A stretch of DNA of 20,996 bases from a virus. The number at the start of each line of letters is the position of its first letter. The first letter of the stretch is position 1. The stretch is from positions 1 through 20,996 of IMG/VR virus record IMGVR_UViG_3300027963_000396; one strand, given 5' to 3'. A program made the position numbers and the translations under genes. Positions 70 through 14,188 of the stretch are shown here, piece by piece. The notes beneath the pieces were generated by a model that was given only the letters and a program-made list of their open reading frames with translations, was not told where the DNA came from and made no database searches.

Positions 70-534
70 CTAGGCCGCCCCCCTCAGGTCGTTGTACGCC
101 TTCACGATCGGCTCGGCCTCCGCTAAAAATTGCTCCTTCAGCGCCTTGTCCTGGGCAATAAATTTTGCGCCTCTCGACGCAAGCCACTGCCTTGCTTTCA
201 TAATAGGAAACAGAAAGTGCTTTGGCTCGCTTGGCTCGCTCATCGTGATGGGGTCGGGCAAGATTCCGATCCGCAGATATGTCTGACGCATAAGGCTTGG
301 ATCTGCATCGCCACTACTCAATCGCTTCTGAGTGGCTGCGACTTTCTCATATCGTTTGCCAACCTCTTCAGTAATCCCTGCCTCCTCACATATCGCCTGC
401 ACGTCCTTACCTTCAGTGCGTGCAACCGCAATGATCTCACCGGCGTCTGATGCCAGTGAGATTGTCCTGCCTACCAGCTCAATCGCCTTGTCCCGCGTTT
501 CGTTTAGTTTGTTTATTACAGATAGTAGCTTCAT
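70..534 (-). CDS. DUF3102-like phage protein
   Basis: Soluble 154-residue protein of unknown molecular function. The first half is helical and resembles DUF3102-type proteins: a hydrophobic Gly-Glu-Ile-Ile segment near residue 32, then a helix-turn-helix-like stretch at about 44-66 (Ile-Cys-Glu-Glu-Ala-Gly-Ile-Thr). Family members occur in phages and plasmids, often near replication genes, and may bind DNA; nothing here proves it. The ATG overlaps the stop of the upstream HTH gene by 4 bases (ATGA), so the two are probably translationally coupled. The stop codon lies within a short GGCCTA-CC-TAGGCC palindrome at 63-76. Confidence 0.6.
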   Translation of the reverse strand: MKLLSVINKLNETRDKAIELVGRTISLASDAGEIIAVARTEGKDVQAICEEAGITEEVGKRYEKVAATQKRLSSGDADPSLMRQTYLRIGILPDPITMSEPSEPKHFLFPIMKARQWLASRGAKFIAQDKALKEQFLAEAEPIVKAYNDLRGAA

Positions 535-1004
535 TTCTTAATACCTTTCTTAAGTGCGGCCATGTTGAATTTAGGCGCTTCACGCCGCCGCTTGGCGTGA
601 ACGCGGTATGCTCGTTTGCGGTAGGACTCGCGGGCCTTCTCGCTTTTCTGCGATCGTGCTCGGATACCCAACCGATCATAGACTTCAGTTACTTTCTTGC
701 TGATCGCCTGCTTAGTGATGCCGTACCGCTTGGCCACGGCCGTCATAGATTCGGGCGAACGGTTAAGAGAGATGTTTAAGACCGCATGCCCCAGCGTGTC
801 CGTTCGGTTGGCCATAGCCGGGTGATCGGCAGACTTATCCATAAGGTGCTCTATCACTTTTGTGATAGTCGCAACCGTTGAGGTGGTGACCGTAATCTTT
901 AGGTCATCGCATGACTCAAAGACCAGGTCTTGCAGGCTATCGATCATGCTTGCTGGATGCGGAATAACCGCTGGGATTCGTTCGATTGCTTCCTGATCTA
1001 TCAT
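531..1004 (-). CDS. helix-turn-helix DNA-binding protein
   Basis: 157 residues. The middle (about 72-112) reads as a sigma-like helix-turn-helix: a helix around Gly-His-Ala-Val-Leu, a second around Met-Thr-Ala-Val-Ala-Lys-Arg-Tyr-Gly, and a recognition helix beginning Thr-Lys-Gln-Ala-Ile-Ser-Lys-Lys. The C-terminal third is very basic (many Arg/Lys), which suits non-specific DNA contacts. The gene starts immediately downstream of the iteron cluster at 1018-1151, so the protein is an obvious candidate to bind those repeats as an initiator accessory factor or autoregulator; that link is inference. A GAGG ribosome-binding sequence precedes the ATG by about 10 bases. The stop overlaps the next gene by 4 bases. 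Confidence 0.7.
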   Translation of the reverse strand: MIDQEAIERIPAVIPHPASMIDSLQDLVFESCDDLKITVTTSTVATITKVIEHLMDKSADHPAMANRTDTLGHAVLNISLNRSPESMTAVAKRYGITKQAISKKVTEVYDRLGIRARSQKSEKARESYRKRAYRVHAKRRREAPKFNMAALKKGIKK

Positions 1005-1017
1005 ATTAGATTAACCT

Positions 1018-1151
1018 CGCTAGTGCAGTCGTTAGTGCAGTAATGGAAATGGTGTAATGTATTAGTGCAATAATAGGCCCTAAAGGGCCTTTATTACTGC
1101 ACCTACATGCTCCGCAATACTGCACTAGTGCAATAAGGGTTACTGCACTAA
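1018..1151. repeat. iteron cluster, candidate origin or operator
   Basis: Seven copies, exact or near-exact, of the 12-mer TTACTGCACTAA or its complement TTAGTGCAGTAA lie in about 130 bases: at 1021-1029, 1032-1043, 1062-1073, 1094-1104, 1118-1127, 1126-1136 and 1140-1151. The copies at 1032 and 1140 are perfect reverse complements. Copies at 1118 and 1126 overlap to make the palindrome TGCACTAGTGCA (1121-1132). Copies at 1062 and 1094 face each other across a hairpin, AGGCCC-TAAA-GGGCCT (1075-1090). The cluster fills the gap between the primase-helicase and the HTH gene, where iteron origins are often found. A multi-site operator for the HTH protein is the main alternative. Confidence 0.75.
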
Positions 1152-1153
1152 CG

Positions 1154-3115
1154 TTAAAAGGGCTCATTTGTCACCTTTTTGCTGAATAAACCAGCCTCAG
1201 TTTCTTCGATCAGACCGTCCTCTTTGGCCTGCTTTACACGGGCCTTCGCTTGCCGTTCCTGCAACCCGGTGGCCTGCTGTACAAATGCGACCACTTGGCT
1301 GTATTTAGCCCCTTCGGGTAACTTGCCCCAATCGATCGACATAGCCTTTCTGCCCACTGACTTTTCAGGCGCTCCTACTTCAATCCACGCCATCCCCTTG
1401 TCGGCATGCTTTAGGTGAACTAAAGGCTGCGTCTTGCTGGCTATAAAATCGCTCGCAGTGACGTTAGGACGCAAGCCAGACCGCTTTCCGCGCTTGGTCA
1501 CCTCAAGCTTATAGGTGTACGTGCCTTGCTCATCCTGGCCACAAGGTGACAGCATTAAAACGGCTCTTGCCCAATTCGTCAGCTCGCTCGATCCAAATCC
1601 GCTGTACGCCTTGTCGTGCCCTTGGTAACCGCTGCCGTCCCTTGTTGGTTTTGGGGTATGGTGCATAAGCATCCAGGCAAATCCGCCAGATAGGGCGAGC
1701 GGGTTAAGCAAATTACGCAAAAAGCCACCGGCCGTCTCCTGGCTGGATAAGTCGCCACCGATAAACGCGAGCAACGGATCTACCCAGGCTAGGTCGGGTT
1801 TATGCTTTTCAGCTAAGCGACGCATCCTGTCCACGAACCGCTCACCCGTGGATGTACAGTCGCGAACGATCACGATGTTCTGCTTCACCCGATCCAGCTC
1901 CTCTGCGGTCAAGTCCAACGCCTTTAGAATGCCCTGCAACGCCTCAGCCACGTCGCCCTCATCGTTCTCCGCCTGCACAATCAGCGATTTCAATGGCTTG
2001 CCGTGTGGCGATATGCCAAACAGATCACGCCCGGCCGCCCAGGTGATAGCGGCCTGTAGGCAGAGCACGCTTTTACCAAGGCCACTGCTCCCCACCCACA
2101 ACGCCGATCCGCCACGGCAAATCCATCGCTTGCCAAGCAGTTGCGTTATGTCGGCATCCTCCTTGAAATTTACTAACTGCTCCCAGCTATACGGCTCAGG
2201 AATATCACCGTAGATCGTTCGCTCCATCCACTCCATGTAAGTCAAAGTAGGTGCGCCACATTCGACTAACTCTTGCTGTAAGCCCGTGGCAGTACGCATA
2301 GCACCGGGCAACCGAGACAACCGGCCTGCGTCCTTGTTAGCCGGATCGGGCTTAGAATGTTCTAGGTGCTTGTAGATAAAATCCACACGTTCAGCAAACT
2401 CCTTGGCATTGGCTGCCCGAATCTCCACCCATGCGTGCAGGCTTCGCGATCCGCTCTTTATGATGGACGACGTCGGCAACCCACTGCGCTTAATGATCGC
2501 CCACTGTTCGGCCATCGTGCTTTCATCAAACTCAATCAGGCAATGGCGAAACTTGGTAATCGACTCGGCCTTGCGGTTCTTGCCGTTGTTAGCGTTAATC
2601 GAAACATAGACGCCCACTGCATCCCCTTGCCATTCCTTCAATCCGTCGGCCTTAAACAGCTCTAGCCATTCCTCCCGGCTTCTCGTCTCGCCAGCACCGT
2701 CCGGCCGTTCGCGGCCGTCCTTGTCCTTAATTGATCGACAGATGTTTATGTAATCGCCTACATCGAAACACGTAGTCAGGAACTTATCTACCGGCCCGCT
2801 CTCCACGCTGATCGGCATGGGCGGTACTGGCAGATCCTCGCGCACGATCGCCCCGTTCTGATAGGCATACTTGGCCTTAGGCTTCCACGCCTCCCTGGCT
2901 GGTTTACTAAATGCGGATCTGACCGCACTCACGGCCTCATTCTGCGATAGCCCCACCTTAAAAGCCCACTCCTCTGCGTTAGTCGTTGCGTCGAACTCCG
3001 TCAGCCCTTGGTCGCGCCACTGGCATGCCAGTTTGAATAGCTGTGTATTGCGCTCACCCTCAGCGGCTCCGTTGCGATGGATGGCTTCGATAGCGGGTGG
3101 TAGTGGTGCGATCAT
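1154..3115 (-). CDS. AEP primase / RepA-type helicase fusion
   Basis: 653-residue replication protein that should prime and unwind phage DNA. Residues 16-75 resemble a PriCT-type helical domain. An archaeo-eukaryotic primase (AEP)-like core follows at about 165-275: an acidic motif Leu-Ile-Glu-Phe-Asp (193-197), a Ser-x-His-like Ser-Leu-His (225-227), and a basic Gly-Arg-Leu-Ser-Arg-Leu-Pro segment (264-270). A RecA/RepA-type ATPase domain comes next, with Walker A GSSGLGKS at 342-349, Walker B LAWVD at 442-446 and a conserved MHHTPKP segment at 484-490. The C-terminus (about 600-640) looks like a winged helix. The start overlaps the preceding gene by 4 bases (ATGA). The stop lies 3 bases from the iteron cluster, which supports a role at that origin. 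Confidence 0.88.
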   Translation of the reverse strand: MIAPLPPAIEAIHRNGAAEGERNTQLFKLACQWRDQGLTEFDATTNAEEWAFKVGLSQNEAVSAVRSAFSKPAREAWKPKAKYAYQNGAIVREDLPVPPMPISVESGPVDKFLTTCFDVGDYINICRSIKDKDGRERPDGAGETRSREEWLELFKADGLKEWQGDAVGVYVSINANNGKNRKAESITKFRHCLIEFDESTMAEQWAIIKRSGLPTSSIIKSGSRSLHAWVEIRAANAKEFAERVDFIYKHLEHSKPDPANKDAGRLSRLPGAMRTATGLQQELVECGAPTLTYMEWMERTIYGDIPEPYSWEQLVNFKEDADITQLLGKRWICRGGSALWVGSSGLGKSVLCLQAAITWAAGRDLFGISPHGKPLKSLIVQAENDEGDVAEALQGILKALDLTAEELDRVKQNIVIVRDCTSTGERFVDRMRRLAEKHKPDLAWVDPLLAFIGGDLSSQETAGGFLRNLLNPLALSGGFAWMLMHHTPKPTRDGSGYQGHDKAYSGFGSSELTNWARAVLMLSPCGQDEQGTYTYKLEVTKRGKRSGLRPNVTASDFIASKTQPLVHLKHADKGMAWIEVGAPEKSVGRKAMSIDWGKLPEGAKYSQVVAFVQQATGLQERQAKARVKQAKEDGLIEETEAGLFSKKVTNEPF

Positions 3116-5116: not shown

Positions 5117-5265
5117 AGCCCCGGCCTCATTCGATCGATCAGATCGTTTTCGCGTCCTTCAGCAGCCGCCAGCGCAGCCTTTGCCTCCGCCAGCTCACGG
5201 GCCAACGAGCGCACGCGGTTAAGCAACTGCTCGTGGGTGGATTGTTCGGGTAGGATCTCGATCAC
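5113..5265 (-). CDS. small coiled-coil protein (50 aa)
   Basis: GTG-started gene between the exonuclease and the 3D-domain gene, overlapping each by 4 bases (GTGA at 5262-5265, ATGA at 5113-5116). Residues about 13-40 form an Ala/Glu/Leu-rich heptad-like helix, so it is likely a dimeric coiled coil. Function unknown. Confidence 0.55.
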   Translation of the reverse strand: MIEILPEQSTHEQLLNRVRSLARELAEAKAALAAAEGRENDLIDRMRPGL

Positions 5266-6029
5266 AACTTTACCTCACGCGGGTCGTACTTCTTCAGCCA
5301 GCGCCACACTTTGCAGATCGATGTGAACGCCTCGAACGCCTGGGCAACTTGCTCGGCGGTGTAGCGAATGTCCTGCAACTGGCCGGTGACTGGATCGATC
5401 AGAATGTTTCGGCAAGCCATCCCATCGTCGGTAAATGCGTATGCGTAGGCACTGAGCTGAAGCAGATCAGTTTCATAGCCTGCCGCTTTCCCGTTCTTAA
5501 ATTTGCGTGTCTTAAAATCGATAACCTCCATCTCACCGTGGATCTGGGCGATCAAATCTACCCTTCCTGCGTAACCTTCAGCTTCATTCACTAGCACGGA
5601 CTCGCTGGCGTGAACTTTAGTTACGCAACACTCCCGCCATTCCTTTAGGCCCGCATAGTGCTCCTCGTAGCCTTTGATCAGTTCACCCGGCTCTTGCCGA
5701 TTGATTATCATTTCAGCCAGGGAATGAATGTGAGTCCCGCGGGCAGCAGCGGCCTCGACTTCCTTTCTGCTGTCTAATACGACTCGCTTGGCAAAATCGG
5801 CCAAAGATTCACCATCATTGCGCGGGAGCGAAAGAGCCGCAGCAATCGCCTGCTCCTCCTTCCAATTCATCAGCCCCTGCTTGCTGGGGCCAGCCGCCCC
5901 GAGGATGGTGGTTACGGACGGATACGCCCCGACCTTGCGGGCAGATCGCAGATCACCGTGGCACGACTCACCCGACGCCAGGTAATAGTGCGACGACTCC
6001 GTCTTTGCCGTGGCAATTAACGCGGCCAT
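5262..6029 (-). CDS. RecB/Cas4-like PD-(D/E)XK exonuclease
   Basis: 255-residue nuclease likely to resect phage DNA ends for recombination. Motifs: Gly-Thr-His-Ile-His (98-102), Gly-Arg-Val-Asp-Leu-Ile (catalytic Asp158), Val-Ile-Asp-Phe-Lys-Thr (Asp171 and Lys173) and Gln-Leu-Ser-Ala-Tyr (191-195). These match the order in the RecB nuclease family. The ATG at 6029 is preferred over a TTG nine bases upstream: an AAGGA sits about 9 bases before the ATG but almost touches the TTG, and the ATG overlaps the stop of the 31-residue gene (TAATG). With the ssDNA-binding-like gene upstream it suggests a phage recombination module. Confidence 0.8.
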   Translation of the reverse strand: MAALIATAKTESSHYYLASGESCHGDLRSARKVGAYPSVTTILGAAGPSKQGLMNWKEEQAIAAALSLPRNDGESLADFAKRVVLDSRKEVEAAAARGTHIHSLAEMIINRQEPGELIKGYEEHYAGLKEWRECCVTKVHASESVLVNEAEGYAGRVDLIAQIHGEMEVIDFKTRKFKNGKAAGYETDLLQLSAYAYAFTDDGMACRNILIDPVTGQLQDIRYTAEQVAQAFEAFTSICKVWRWLKKYDPREVKL

Positions 6030-6124
6030 TATTGCCAATCCTTAATCAGTCGCATGGTCATTAGAGCCAGCACGACTGCTGTGGTTGGGAATACGATTTG
6101 AACTATTAAAGTTAGGATTTCCAT
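6029..6124 (-). CDS. 31-aa single-span membrane peptide
   Basis: A short frame whose residues 2-24 form one continuous hydrophobic segment, followed by the polar, partly basic end Arg-Leu-Ile-Lys-Asp-Trp-Gln. Its TAA overlaps the exonuclease ATG by one base (TAATG), a classic coupling junction, and a GAAAG sits upstream of its ATG. Function unknown. It could be a small membrane toxin-like or superinfection-exclusion peptide, or serve only to couple translation. Confidence 0.5.
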   Translation of the reverse strand: MEILTLIVQIVFPTTAVVLALMTMRLIKDWQ

Positions 6125-6137
6125 AGAGGGTCTTTCT

Positions 6138-6166
6138 GGCCGAGGTGGGAATTGCCCACCCCGGCC
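6138..6166. other. strong 12-bp hairpin between early genes
   Basis: GGCCGAGGTGGG pairs with CCCACCCCGGCC across a 5-base loop, with one imperfect pair (a G-U wobble in the minus-strand RNA). It lies between the stop of the ssDNA-binding-like gene and the start of the 31-residue peptide. No T-run follows on the minus strand, so it is more likely an RNA-processing or stability element, or an attenuating structure, than an intrinsic terminator. Confidence 0.7.
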
Positions 6167-6173
6167 AATTTGG

Positions 6174-6656
6174 TTAGAACGGTACGGGTGTTCCGTCGGC
6201 ATCCAGCTCGACTACTGCTGGTTTCGGTGCGCCCGGACGATTGCATTTCCGGATGAAGTCTTTATCGACTTTCACTTTGTTCGCTCCGGCAGGCAGTACC
6301 GCCTGCACATTGGCGTATGTAGAGCCATCACGCTCCGCATGGGTCACAAGGATCTGGCACGGCTTACCGATCAGCGTTTCCAGATCCAGATTCTGCGGTG
6401 GCGCCTTTTTGGCGTAGGATTTCAGATCTTTGAACAGAGCCGCTTTCTCATGCAGGCTCAGTCCGTAACGCCGGCCGATGGTGAACGGCCGCCCGTCCTC
6501 CATCTTCTCAGCGATTTGCCAGACCAACCTGATCTGGTGCTTCTTTCCATACTGCGTTTCCACTACGCCGAGATCCTCAACGTCGCAGAACACTGCGTCG
6601 TGATTCCCTTCCGGGGCTGGCGTATATGTGCCCCCTCTTGATGCTACGATTGGCAT
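6174..6656 (-). CDS. ssDNA-binding-like phage replication protein
   Basis: 160 residues. The middle alternates beta-like segments (His-Gln-Ile-Arg-Leu-Val-Trp-Gln-Ile) with the pattern Arg-Arg-Tyr-Gly-Leu-Ser-Leu-His-Glu-Lys-Ala and ends in a proline-rich tail. The same pattern occurs in a widespread phage family found beside recombination nucleases and primases, where members are treated as ssDNA-binding-like; this is recognition by eye. The tail ends Thr-Pro-Val-Pro-Phe, and a C-terminal Phe is common in SSB-type proteins. The neighbouring RecB-like nuclease fits a pairing/resection module. Confidence 0.5.
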   Translation of the reverse strand: MPIVASRGGTYTPAPEGNHDAVFCDVEDLGVVETQYGKKHQIRLVWQIAEKMEDGRPFTIGRRYGLSLHEKAALFKDLKSYAKKAPPQNLDLETLIGKPCQILVTHAERDGSTYANVQAVLPAGANKVKVDKDFIRKCNRPGAPKPAVVELDADGTPVPF

Positions 6657-8041: not shown

Positions 8042-9139
8042 ATGGCGTATTCTTACCAGAAACGCGGCAGCCCTTGGTTCTTTATTCGTTTTAAAGACCC
8101 GACTGGAAAATGGCGTAGTAAAAGCACCCGCTACCGAATCGACAATACGCTGCATCGCGCAAAGGCAACGGCCGAGGCTGCTCGAATTGGAGTGAACGAA
8201 AAGCGAGCGGATAGTGGCCACGAATGGGTTGATGATTTGATCGAGAATCATCCCGTTTCTGCTCTGACAAAAGTGTATTATCGGAACTGCTGGCGTCATC
8301 TTGCGCGATTTATTATCGAAAAAAAAATAACCCTGCAAGCGTTTTCTCCATCCGATTGTGAAATTTATTTGAAGTGGCGCCAGAGCCTCCCGCGCACGTC
8401 CGGCGGCAAAGCAGGCAGGAACCAAGCCTGCCAAGATTTGAAGATTCTTAAGTGGATTCACCGCCAAGGCCGACTGCTCGGAAAGATGGATTCTGTCGCC
8501 CTTCTGGATTACCGAATTAAACGCGGGCCGATCTCCCGCGTTAAACCTGTCTTTTCGGATAATGAGATTAAAATCACCCGGAAGGCTCTGGCCGTTGAGG
8601 GAGTGCCCGAATGGATGAAAGTCAGCTTTGAGATCGCCCTGGCTACGGGGTGCCGTTTGCGCGAAACGCAGATCCCGCTTGAATGCGTCGACTTGAAAAA
8701 CCGCGTGCTTACCTTTCCATGCCCCAAGGGTGGAGCCGGTAAATCCTTTAGCATTCCTATCCCGGCCGCCATCGAACCCATGCTTGCCAAGATGAAGGCC
8801 GAAGGGCGCGAGATCACTTGTGAAGTGCCCCGCACGCAAGCCTCGCTTTGCTGGCGTCGGCTGCTCGATATATGCGGCCTTAAACGTCACTGCTTTCACT
8901 CCCTGCGTGTAACTCGTGTAACCAGGCTTCGGCTTTCAGGTTGCTCGCAATCCGTTGCCATGAGATTGGTAAATCACTCTTCGACTTTAGTGCACGAGTT
9001 GTACCAACGGCACTGCGTAGACGATCTCCGCGATGCAGTGAACTTAGGCCAGTCTGCATCAACCGCCACTGATCAAAGTCACTCGGAATTACCTTTCCCG
9101 CGATCAGCGGGAACCCAGGCAGTGCCTGCATTTGCTTGA
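8042..9139 (+). CDS. int: tyrosine recombinase (phage integrase)
   Basis: 365-residue site-specific recombinase likely to integrate the phage at a host tRNA gene. Residues 1-60 look like a basic AP2-type arm-binding domain, 65-150 a SAM-like core-binding domain, and 170-340 the catalytic domain. Catalytic residues: Arg205 in Ala-Thr-Gly-Cys-Arg, a lysine at 229 or 234, His286 and Arg289 in His-Ser-Leu-Arg, His312 in Asn-His-Ser, and Tyr321 in Leu-Tyr-Gln-Arg. It is one of only two rightward genes in the window. It starts 80 bases from attP, and its 3' third overlaps the oppositely oriented excisionase-like gene. Confidence 0.93.
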   Translation: MAYSYQKRGSPWFFIRFKDPTGKWRSKSTRYRIDNTLHRAKATAEAARIGVNEKRADSGHEWVDDLIENHPVSALTKVYYRNCWRHLARFIIEKKITLQAFSPSDCEIYLKWRQSLPRTSGGKAGRNQACQDLKILKWIHRQGRLLGKMDSVALLDYRIKRGPISRVKPVFSDNEIKITRKALAVEGVPEWMKVSFEIALATGCRLRETQIPLECVDLKNRVLTFPCPKGGAGKSFSIPIPAAIEPMLAKMKAEGREITCEVPRTQASLCWRRLLDICGLKRHCFHSLRVTRVTRLRLSGCSQSVAMRLVNHSSTLVHELYQRHCVDDLRDAVNLGQSASTATDQSHSELPFPRSAGTQAVPAFA

Positions 9140-12637: not shown

Positions 12638-13312
12638 TTAGTTAAATGGATAAGTTTTCCCTGCTCCAGCGTTGTAGAGCGATGTAATTTCTCCGCCAGT
12701 CAAAGCACGACTCCAAGCCCCAACCTCATCAATTCTTCCTATGTATGTTGAGTCCCCGTTGTTATTTGCCCCAATAAAAAATCCGACACCTAAATTTGGA
12801 TAAGTATAAGATTCAGTTCCTATTGATACATTGTCGATATTTAACTCTATTGTTCCAGAGCCATATTTTAATACAACAAAATGCCAGTTATTATCATTAT
12901 AGGAACCAGAAGATGTTATTGACTCTTCATCAACGCTCTCATAATATATTTGCCCGCTTGGGTTGAATACCACTTGAAAGTTATTTTGACTATTCTCGTT
13001 GCTTGCAAATATAACGCGATAACCTTCGTCTGTGGTTGTTTTCACCCACGCGCAGATTGTTGCGCTCGCTCCAAAAGTAATGTTTGAATTTGCCTTTAAC
13101 CAGTTGCTTGAATCAAAGATTGCTCCGTTGTTAATAATTCCAGATGAATTTCCGACTCCATTATTGTTTATTAAAGTTCGCCCGTTTCCGCTTGAATCAA
13201 GCCAACTATTATTATCCAAATTCCAGTAGGCAAGCAGATTGCTAAGCAGTGATAAGGGGGGGGTGTTGGAGACAACAAGCGAGCGAAGTCTCAGGCCGAG
13301 GCCGAGGTACAT
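12638..13312 (-). CDS. LamG-domain tail/adhesin protein
   Basis: 224 residues. After a short N-terminal region the rest (about 25-220) is one LamG/concanavalin-like beta-sandwich: Leu-Leu-Ala-Tyr-Trp-Asn-Leu-Asp at the start, Thr-Ile-Cys-Ala-Trp-Val-Lys in the middle, then Trp-His-Phe-Val-Val, Tyr-Ile-Gly-Arg-Ile-Asp-Glu-Val and the closing Trp-Ser-Arg-Ala-Leu-Thr. Such domains bind glycans, so a host-recognition role on the tail tip is likely. It is strikingly richer in A, T and Asn codons than the lysis genes downstream. A run of eight C (coding strand) near codons 17-19 could cause frameshift variation. Confidence 0.75.
   Translation of the reverse strand: MYLGLGLRLRSLVVSNTPPLSLLSNLLAYWNLDNNSWLDSSGNGRTLINNNGVGNSSGIINNGAIFDSSNWLKANSNITFGASATICAWVKTTTDEGYRVIFASNENSQNNFQVVFNPSGQIYYESVDEESITSSGSYNDNNWHFVVLKYGSGTIELNIDNVSIGTESYTYPNLGVGFFIGANNNGDSTYIGRIDEVGAWSRALTGGEITSLYNAGAGKTYPFN
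13256..13263. repeat. G8/C8 homopolymer in the LamG gene
   Basis: Eight consecutive G on the plus strand (C on the coding strand) lie near codons 17-19 of the LamG gene. Loss or gain of one base would cut the protein short. Such runs drive phase variation in some surface and tail proteins; a simple sequencing artefact is also possible. Confidence 0.6.
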
Positions 13313-13315
13313 GGC

Positions 13316-13585
13316 TTAAGTTCCCCGCGTGTAAGCGATGGTTTTGCCAGTAGCCAACTGAAATGCGGCAACAGACGCAAATAAAACAAATCCGGCCGGG
13401 AAGGTAATTCCAGTTAAGGCATCGCCAGTAAGCGAGGTTTGGCTAACTGACGTAAACGATCCATCGGAAATAAATTGAATTGCTTGGAAGTTGCCAGTAA
13501 CGACGCCGGTAGTAGTCGTTACTTTCCCGCCATATTCGCCAACGCTAAGGGATGTGTCCTGATTAATTTGAAGATCGTATGCCAT
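13316..13585 (-). CDS. small beta-rich tail-associated protein (89 aa)
   Basis: Beta-rich protein full of Thr, Ser, Gly and Val. It has a Val-Thr-Gly-Asn-Phe-Gln-Ala-Ile-Gln-Phe strand, a Gly-Ile-Thr-Phe-Pro-Ala-Gly segment and a Thr-Arg-Gly-Thr end. It is similar in style to short jelly-roll or tail-spike tip modules. It lies between a hypothetical tail gene and LamG on the same strand. No enzymatic motif is seen. No clear Shine-Dalgarno sequence precedes its ATG. Confidence 0.55.
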   Translation of the reverse strand: MAYDLQINQDTSLSVGEYGGKVTTTTGVVTGNFQAIQFISDGSFTSVSQTSLTGDALTGITFPAGFVLFASVAAFQLATGKTIAYTRGT

Positions 13586-13603
13586 GTAATGTGAAAAACT
13601 ATG

Positions 13604-14188
13604 TCAAAGGGGCGCGCCCGTGCTTGTGTCGTATGTTCCACCATAAGACCAGTATTCTTGTGCAGTAAATTTTGCAATAAATGGCGGGTCGGGCTGTGTT
13701 GATCCATATAGAGGTGCTGATATATTGTGGCCTAGCCACGACATTGTGAATGTACCGTTTTCAGGATATTCTTGGTCGATTGAAGTAAGAAAATCAGAGC
13801 CTTGAAGTATTCCAAAAAAATATATAAAAGGATAATACAAATCTCCAACTTTTAATACTGGCTTGTAATCTCTTGTGGTGCCACTGAAAATCTCAAGAGG
13901 ATCAATAGCGCTTCCTCGATCAAAAGTCTTAAAATAAGAATACAGAGCAGGATTGCATACTATATTTTCTTCGTTTTCTATTGGAGTAAAGAATTGAAAA
14001 TTCTCGCCTACTGGGCCGAGATTATCTTCGTATGTCCATTTTTTTACTCTCCAAAAAAGGGAAACTGTTTGATCTAGGCTTAATGCAAAAGGGTAATATG
14101 TGCCCCTAACTTCTTGCGGAATTGTGCTTGCTGGCGTGATGCAGAATGGAAGATACCCACTTGCGCTAGCGTGTAAGACTTTACCCAT
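13604..14188 (-). CDS. AT-rich hypothetical tail-tip protein (194 aa)
   Basis: Rich in Tyr, Phe, Asn and Thr with no transmembrane segment or catalytic motif. It opens with Lys-Val-Leu-His-Ala-Ser-Ala-Ser-Gly-Tyr-Leu-Pro-Phe, a style common in tail-tip and fibre-adjacent proteins. Its base composition is markedly AT-rich, unlike the gene upstream, so this and the LamG gene appear to be recently exchanged host-range genes. Function unknown. Confidence 0.6.
   Translation of the reverse strand: MGKVLHASASGYLPFCITPASTIPQEVRGTYYPFALSLDQTVSLFWRVKKWTYEDNLGPVGENFQFFTPIENEENIVCNPALYSYFKTFDRGSAIDPLEIFSGTTRDYKPVLKVGDLYYPFIYFFGILQGSDFLTSIDQEYPENGTFTMSWLGHNISAPLYGSTQPDPPFIAKFTAQEYWSYGGTYDTSTGAPL

Follow-up and report, generated by a model that had tools for sequence, protein, structure and literature searches.

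The window analysed here is a virus record of 20,996 bases, the left-end genes of which lie on the minus strand. Two of them, encoding a primase-helicase (3115-1154) and an HTH protein (1004-531), are separated by a 149-nt gap at 1005-1153, and this gap is filled by an array of short repeats. This raises the question of what the repeats are for and, if they are bound by a protein, which of the neighbouring gene products reads them. The features to which we refer throughout are as follows.

1154-3115, minus strand: gene of the primase-helicase, 653 aa
1157-1393, minus strand: C-terminal domain of the primase-helicase (residues ~575-653), a predicted winged helix and the proposed repeat reader
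1005-1153, no strand assigned: whole intergenic array
1140-1151, plus strand: iteron TTACTGCACTAA, motif match in the gap
1125-1136, minus strand: iteron TTATTGCACTAG, overlapping the iteron at 1117-1128
1117-1128, plus strand: iteron ATACTGCACTAG, motif match in the gap
1094-1105, plus strand: iteron TTACTGCACCTA, one of the inner pair at the hairpin base
1075-1090, no strand assigned: central hairpin AGGCCC-TAAA-GGGCCT (AGGCCC-TTTA-GGGCCT on the other strand), 6-bp stem
1062-1073, minus strand: iteron TTATTGCACTAA, the other of the inner pair at the hairpin base
1032-1043, minus strand: iteron TTACTGCACTAA, motif match in the gap
1020-1031, minus strand: degenerate iteron CGACTGCACTAG, motif match in the gap
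531-1004, minus strand: gene of the HTH protein, adjoining the array

A sequence-only reading had described a seven-copy cluster in both orientations, with an exact inverted pair, an overlapping pair and a hairpin between facing copies, at a density that it held to be beyond chance, and each of these points is borne out. The 12-mer TTAYTGCACTAA occurs seven times at 1020-1151, with 0-3 mismatches per copy, four copies pointing one way and three the opposite way. The exact inverted pair spans 14 nt (1030-1043 and 1140-1153), the overlapping iterons at 1117-1128 and 1125-1136 form TGCACTAGTGCA, and the inner iterons at 1062-1073 and 1094-1105 face one another at the base of the hairpin stem. Counting either strand, the commonest 7-mer has six occurrences in the gap, against a maximum of five in 5000 dinucleotide-preserving shuffles, 4966 of which gave three or fewer, and no shuffle was as repetitive as the gap itself. 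The exact 12-mer TTAGTGCARTAA has no further occurrence in the record, and copies of TTACTGCACTAA with 0-1 mismatch are confined to the array. Multiple copies of a short repeat thus adjoin the gene of a putative initiator, as is expected of an iteron origin.

The primase-helicase combines a PriCT_1-like N-terminus, an AEP-type primase, a RecA-fold helicase of SF4 type and the predicted C-terminal winged helix, as judged from Pfam (AAA_25, 5.5e-20; weak PriCT_1), PHROG (DNA primase, 1.7e-48) and Foldseek searches. No TOPRIM domain was found in the Pfam scan of the protein, and the fold of the primase part matches the AEP type, being closer to the S-2L PrimPol (6zp9, E 1.1e-5) than to RepB' of RSF1010 (3h20, E 2.7e-4). 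The helicase part matches RSF1010 RepA (1olo, E 4.7e-5; 1nlf, E 3.4e-4); KaiC, DnaB and RecA also match it (KaiC and DnaB similarly), as a RecA fold predicts. AlphaFold modelled the full protein with moderate confidence (mean pLDDT 74, pTM 0.50). Modelled alone, the C-terminal domain is predicted to be a winged helix, with two helices and a two-strand wing (H-H-E-E) at a pLDDT of about 80-87 centrally, and its nearest solved structures are mainly winged-helix proteins, with a middling best Z of 6.1. In a Pfam scan of the C-terminal domains, that of the window had no significant family match, and a sequence search of the PDB gave nothing useful, its serpin matches being due to chance.

More than 200 related loci came from scans of viral contigs, for which the queries were the HTH protein, the primase and an alignment of primases; of these, 130 distinct loci were used to compare repeat type with protein. 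The last 78 primase residues were grouped at 60% identity into seven types and the repeat units were read from the DNA. Because copies vary within arrays, the type labels below are summaries.

T1: unit TTAYTGCACTAA, 63 distinct loci, including the window
T2: unit around CCTATC, 36 distinct loci
T3: unit ACCTTCAAGWT, 21 distinct loci
T4: units ACCCCCAAGWT and ACCCTCAAGAT, 7 distinct loci
T5: unit close to that of T3, 1 distinct locus
T6: CCATGGGAC-like unit, 1 distinct locus
T7: unit ACAGACAAATT, 1 distinct locus

T3, T4, T5 and T7 have the common frame ACNNNCAARWT with a type-specific triplet; within T4 several copies depart from the unit, and there are sub-types on both the domain and the repeat side. 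One further array (L225:2899-3021) has the mixed triplets TAC, TAT, CAC and CCC in a ACNNNCAA frame beside a T4-like domain that shares only about 65% identity with other T4 domains, and may represent a further specificity. The expectation that the repeats are conserved in related phages holds, in that the array is kept in close relatives, with no case of absence or scrambling, and some near relatives have the entire array exchanged for another, along with its probable reader. Second arrays elsewhere in the relatives were looked for and gave only scattered single matches. Among annotated phages, a DNA search with the first 8 kb gave no match and a protein search recovered only the core (~96-494) at 25-28% identity, the C-terminal domain not being found. 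A single bacterial contig (L229, a Verrucomicrobiota MAG) encodes a primase 35% identical to that of the window and is laid out alike, with a different repeat and a different hairpin (L229:3553-4622, repeats around the long GC-rich palindrome GGGGCCCCTATTATTTCATAATAGGGGCCCC, with an HTH gene further on), which hints at a host group.

Comparison across these loci points to the C-terminal domain of the primase-helicase as the part that reads the array. In every one of the 130 distinct loci the domain type agrees with the repeat type, finer sub-types aside, and no domain type carries the repeat of another, except T5, which is related to T3 and has its unit. A search in the reverse direction, in which 2.9 million viral contigs were scanned for array DNA patterns, found the matching domain just upstream in 88/88 T1 and 22/22 T2 cases (110/110 distinct loci, although many of the contigs overlap the earlier locus set); this search returned no orphan arrays without a primase, as satellites might carry. 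Per primase column, association with repeat type averages 0-0.2 at residues 1-550 and 0.5-0.8 at residues 576-650. On trees, the C-terminal domain has 5 changes of repeat type, which is the minimum for six types, the core 14, the HTH protein 26 and the N-terminus 31, where shuffled labels average 45-50; these were quick FastTree trees of recombining loci and the counts are therefore comparative rather than rates. Five exact HTH proteins are each seen with two or three repeat types, exact C-terminal domains never. No exact core occurs with two repeat types, but nearly every core sequence is unique, and the core was for this reason judged by near-identical pairs and by its tree. Since the repeats change only together with the C-terminal tail, that tail is the likely reader, with a repeat specific to its cognate initiator as far as co-segregation of sequences can tell. 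The earlier proposal, an array that binds protein and is served by the primase-helicase, is thus strongly supported.

Pairs of close relatives make the same point at higher resolution. Seven natural pairs have DNA identities of mostly 80-100% outside, and 15-80% within, a block that extends from ~240 nt before the primase stop codon (residue ~575) to about the HTH start codon, so that the breakpoints enclose the C-terminal domain and the whole array, which are swapped as a unit. L018 and L013 have 100% identical cores (residues 110-560) and 100% identical HTH proteins, but their domains are 27% identical and their iterons differ; L149 is 94-100% identical to a T1 reference over residues 100-550 and 26% over 601-650. 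Among the clearest natural swaps is that between L208 and L189, with core and HTH protein 99% identical, domains 39% identical and repeats changed from CCTTCAA to CAGACAA. Because near-identical phages differ only in this block, the C-terminal domain and the array appear to move as one exchanged specificity cassette, and the core tree has about nine more type changes than the history of the domain itself needs. It seems to us evenly balanced whether a broader statement holds, namely that a multi-allelic replication specificity cassette (the last ~78 codons of the primase-helicase gene plus the array) is present in these freshwater phages and is repeatedly exchanged between near-identical genomes, as would be expected if origin-targeting parasites, superinfection or origin competition favoured a change of origin type.

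One possibility is that the co-segregation reflects mere linkage of exchanged variable DNA, with the repeats serving, for example, partition or packaging. The domain and the array are adjacent, so linkage alone could yield part of the pattern, and the swapped block is contiguous, with no recombinants seen inside the array. Against this, the HTH gene is close too, at 15 nt from the last iteron, yet does not follow repeat type, the repeats within an array change together, the ACNNNCAARWT frame with its type-specific triplet (T3, T4, T5 and T7) resembles changed recognition rather than random replacement, and the part of the protein that is swapped is a predicted DNA-binding domain. We therefore regard linkage without recognition as unlikely.

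The reading that we favour, and hold to be likely, is that the array is a replication origin bound by the C-terminal winged helix of the primase-helicase, domain and array together forming a specificity cassette. Beyond the anatomy, co-segregation, cassette exchange and hairpin conservation that the sequences display, we infer the binding, assembly, opening, priming and origin function, which would proceed as follows: 1) the origin lies directly behind the gene of its initiator; 2) the winged helix would bind the seven iterons that flank the hairpin, as co-segregation suggests, each domain type being paired with its own iteron sequence; 3) the bound protein would assemble, probably into a pair of rings opposite one another, given that the inner iterons point towards each other from either side of the hairpin; 4) by analogy with RSF1010, the RepA-like helicase part would then open the DNA; 5) the hairpin, extruded or exposed as a single strand, may be the melting or priming site; and, 6) the RepB'-like primase part would start synthesis at or near the hairpin. 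The earlier claim of a replication origin stands in so far as it fits the anatomy and the known systems, and taken together the analysis indicates that the array is very probably the phage replication start site. The GC-skew check that had been suggested gave no signal: four relatives of ~32-36 kb have no extremum at the array, and since their primase offsets differ and their genes run mostly one way, skew is uninformative there. No AT-rich unwinding element was pinned down.

A second possibility is that the array is an operator through which the primase-helicase, or another phage protein, controls transcription of the HTH gene and of those that follow it, without origin function. Replication genes are commonly autoregulated, which fits such a reading, as does the position of the array directly upstream of the HTH start codon, with only the 15 nt between the last iteron and the ATG. 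It is nevertheless quite unlikely. A search of 900-1300 turned up no sigma-70-type promoter; seven copies facing both ways, together with a hairpin that is conserved and shows compensatory changes, go beyond the needs of an operator; and the repeat type tracks a domain of a replication enzyme, not a regulator.

It was also proposed earlier that the HTH protein binds the repeats, as an origin-binding protein or repressor. Its gene adjoins the array, it contains an HTH-like stretch (a weak LysR-type match), and the bacterial contig L229 likewise has an HTH gene behind its array. Identical HTH proteins, however, occur beside I1, I2 and I3 repeats, while HTH proteins only 51-60% identical share the same T1 repeats, and we consider this reading very improbable; as a reader of the repeats the HTH protein is made unlikely by the repeat-type swaps that occur beside identical copies of it. 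It could bind the hairpin, which is common to all types.

The hairpin itself is retained in all types, with compensatory changes. As single-stranded DNA the gap folds at z = -5.1, part of which the inverted repeats account for. Four stem pairs have changes on both sides among the 12 distinct variants of T1, and pairing is kept in 99.5% of cells, giving a covariation of 0.226 against 0.087 in shuffles (0/500); the value is also above those of all slid versions, a control biased in favour of the hairpin since the structure was drawn from the sequences tested. A CCCTTTA(A)GGG-like core is retained in types 2, 3, 5 and 7, and type 4 has a related loop, whereas the surrounding iterons differ. Comparison of types thus presents the hairpin as the common element and the iterons as the type-specific one. 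That it is an intrinsic terminator of the primase transcript, with the repeats incidental, is extremely unlikely, as the single terminator-like match is on the plus strand, opposite to the genes, the hairpin is followed in the gene direction by TATTATTGC, without the T run that a terminator should have there (types 2-4 likewise lack one), and repeats are present in every type.

The principle of an initiator domain that reads its own iterons is already known from SaPI Rep, P4 alpha and PLE RepA, and the present system is not a member of any single one of the systems with which we compared it. In SaPI Rep and SCCmec Cch2, an initiator helicase uses its C-terminal domain to read iterons that directly follow its own gene (PMC7581432). 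The window likewise has a predicted C-terminal DNA-binding domain and an ori-like array downstream of the gene, but its helicase is of the AAA_25 class with an RSF1010 RepA-like RecA fold, unlike the D5/AAA+ type of SaPI Rep, and it has its own AEP-type primase and a conserved hairpin inside the array. At oriV of RSF1010/IncQ, RepC binds iterons, RepA is a hexameric RecA-fold helicase and RepB' primes at ssi hairpins (PMC4234260). The same three jobs can be assigned here, and the closest PDB folds include RepA and RepB'; RSF1010, however, divides them among three proteins, where here there is one, and has ssiA and ssiB, where here a single hairpin lies in the array. No separate neighbouring protein follows the repeats as a RepC-like protein would, and the iteron-binding part, a short predicted winged helix, is set beside RepC here for its proposed role.

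P4 alpha unites primase, helicase and a winged helix that binds repeats in one protein (PMC4234260), as is predicted here, but its primase is of the TOPRIM type rather than AEP. The pRN1 protein ORF904 is a primase-helicase with a C-terminal winged helix that needs a stem-loop origin behind its gene (PMC4234260); the predicted winged helix and the stem-loop behind the gene are shared, whereas pRN1 has an SF3 helicase and no iterons, and the window a RecA-fold helicase with iterons. RepA of the Vibrio satellites known as PLE has a DNA-binding domain that co-varies with iterons, domain swapping having been inferred and compatibility tested (PMC8263062). The co-variation is alike, but PLE RepA has a RepA_N-type N-terminal domain and two specificities and is not a primase-helicase. 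What is new here is the fusion of an AEP-type primase and a RepA-like helicase to a short, exchangeable, predicted winged helix, together with iterons, a conserved hairpin and many natural swaps.

This suggests that the RSF1010 initiation machinery, with its three proteins, has a single-protein counterpart here. The system also provides, within otherwise near-identical phages, a series of naturally occurring pairs of initiator domain and iteron, several of which differ from one another mainly in a short triplet. Such pairs could reveal which residues of the short winged helix choose which bases, and they allow a direct test of whether origin type sets the compatibility of phages within one cell.

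Some minor features of the genome may also be recorded. Contigs G003, G005, G008 and G010 (32-36 kb) carry the primase at different offsets within a similar gene order, which suggests a circular or circularly permuted genome. An exonuclease-like gene (PHROG 298) at 5262-6656 of the window adjoins a small gene with a weak single-strand-binding-protein match, and the two are possibly a recombination pair that could aid cassette exchange. The stretch at 12638-14188 has a lower GC content (about 42%), encodes a 224-aa protein and is possibly a recently gained tail or receptor region. Lastly, a tyrosine recombinase gene (PHROG integrase, E 3.7e-29) lies on the plus strand at 8042-9139, amid mostly minus-strand genes, and suggests a temperate phage.
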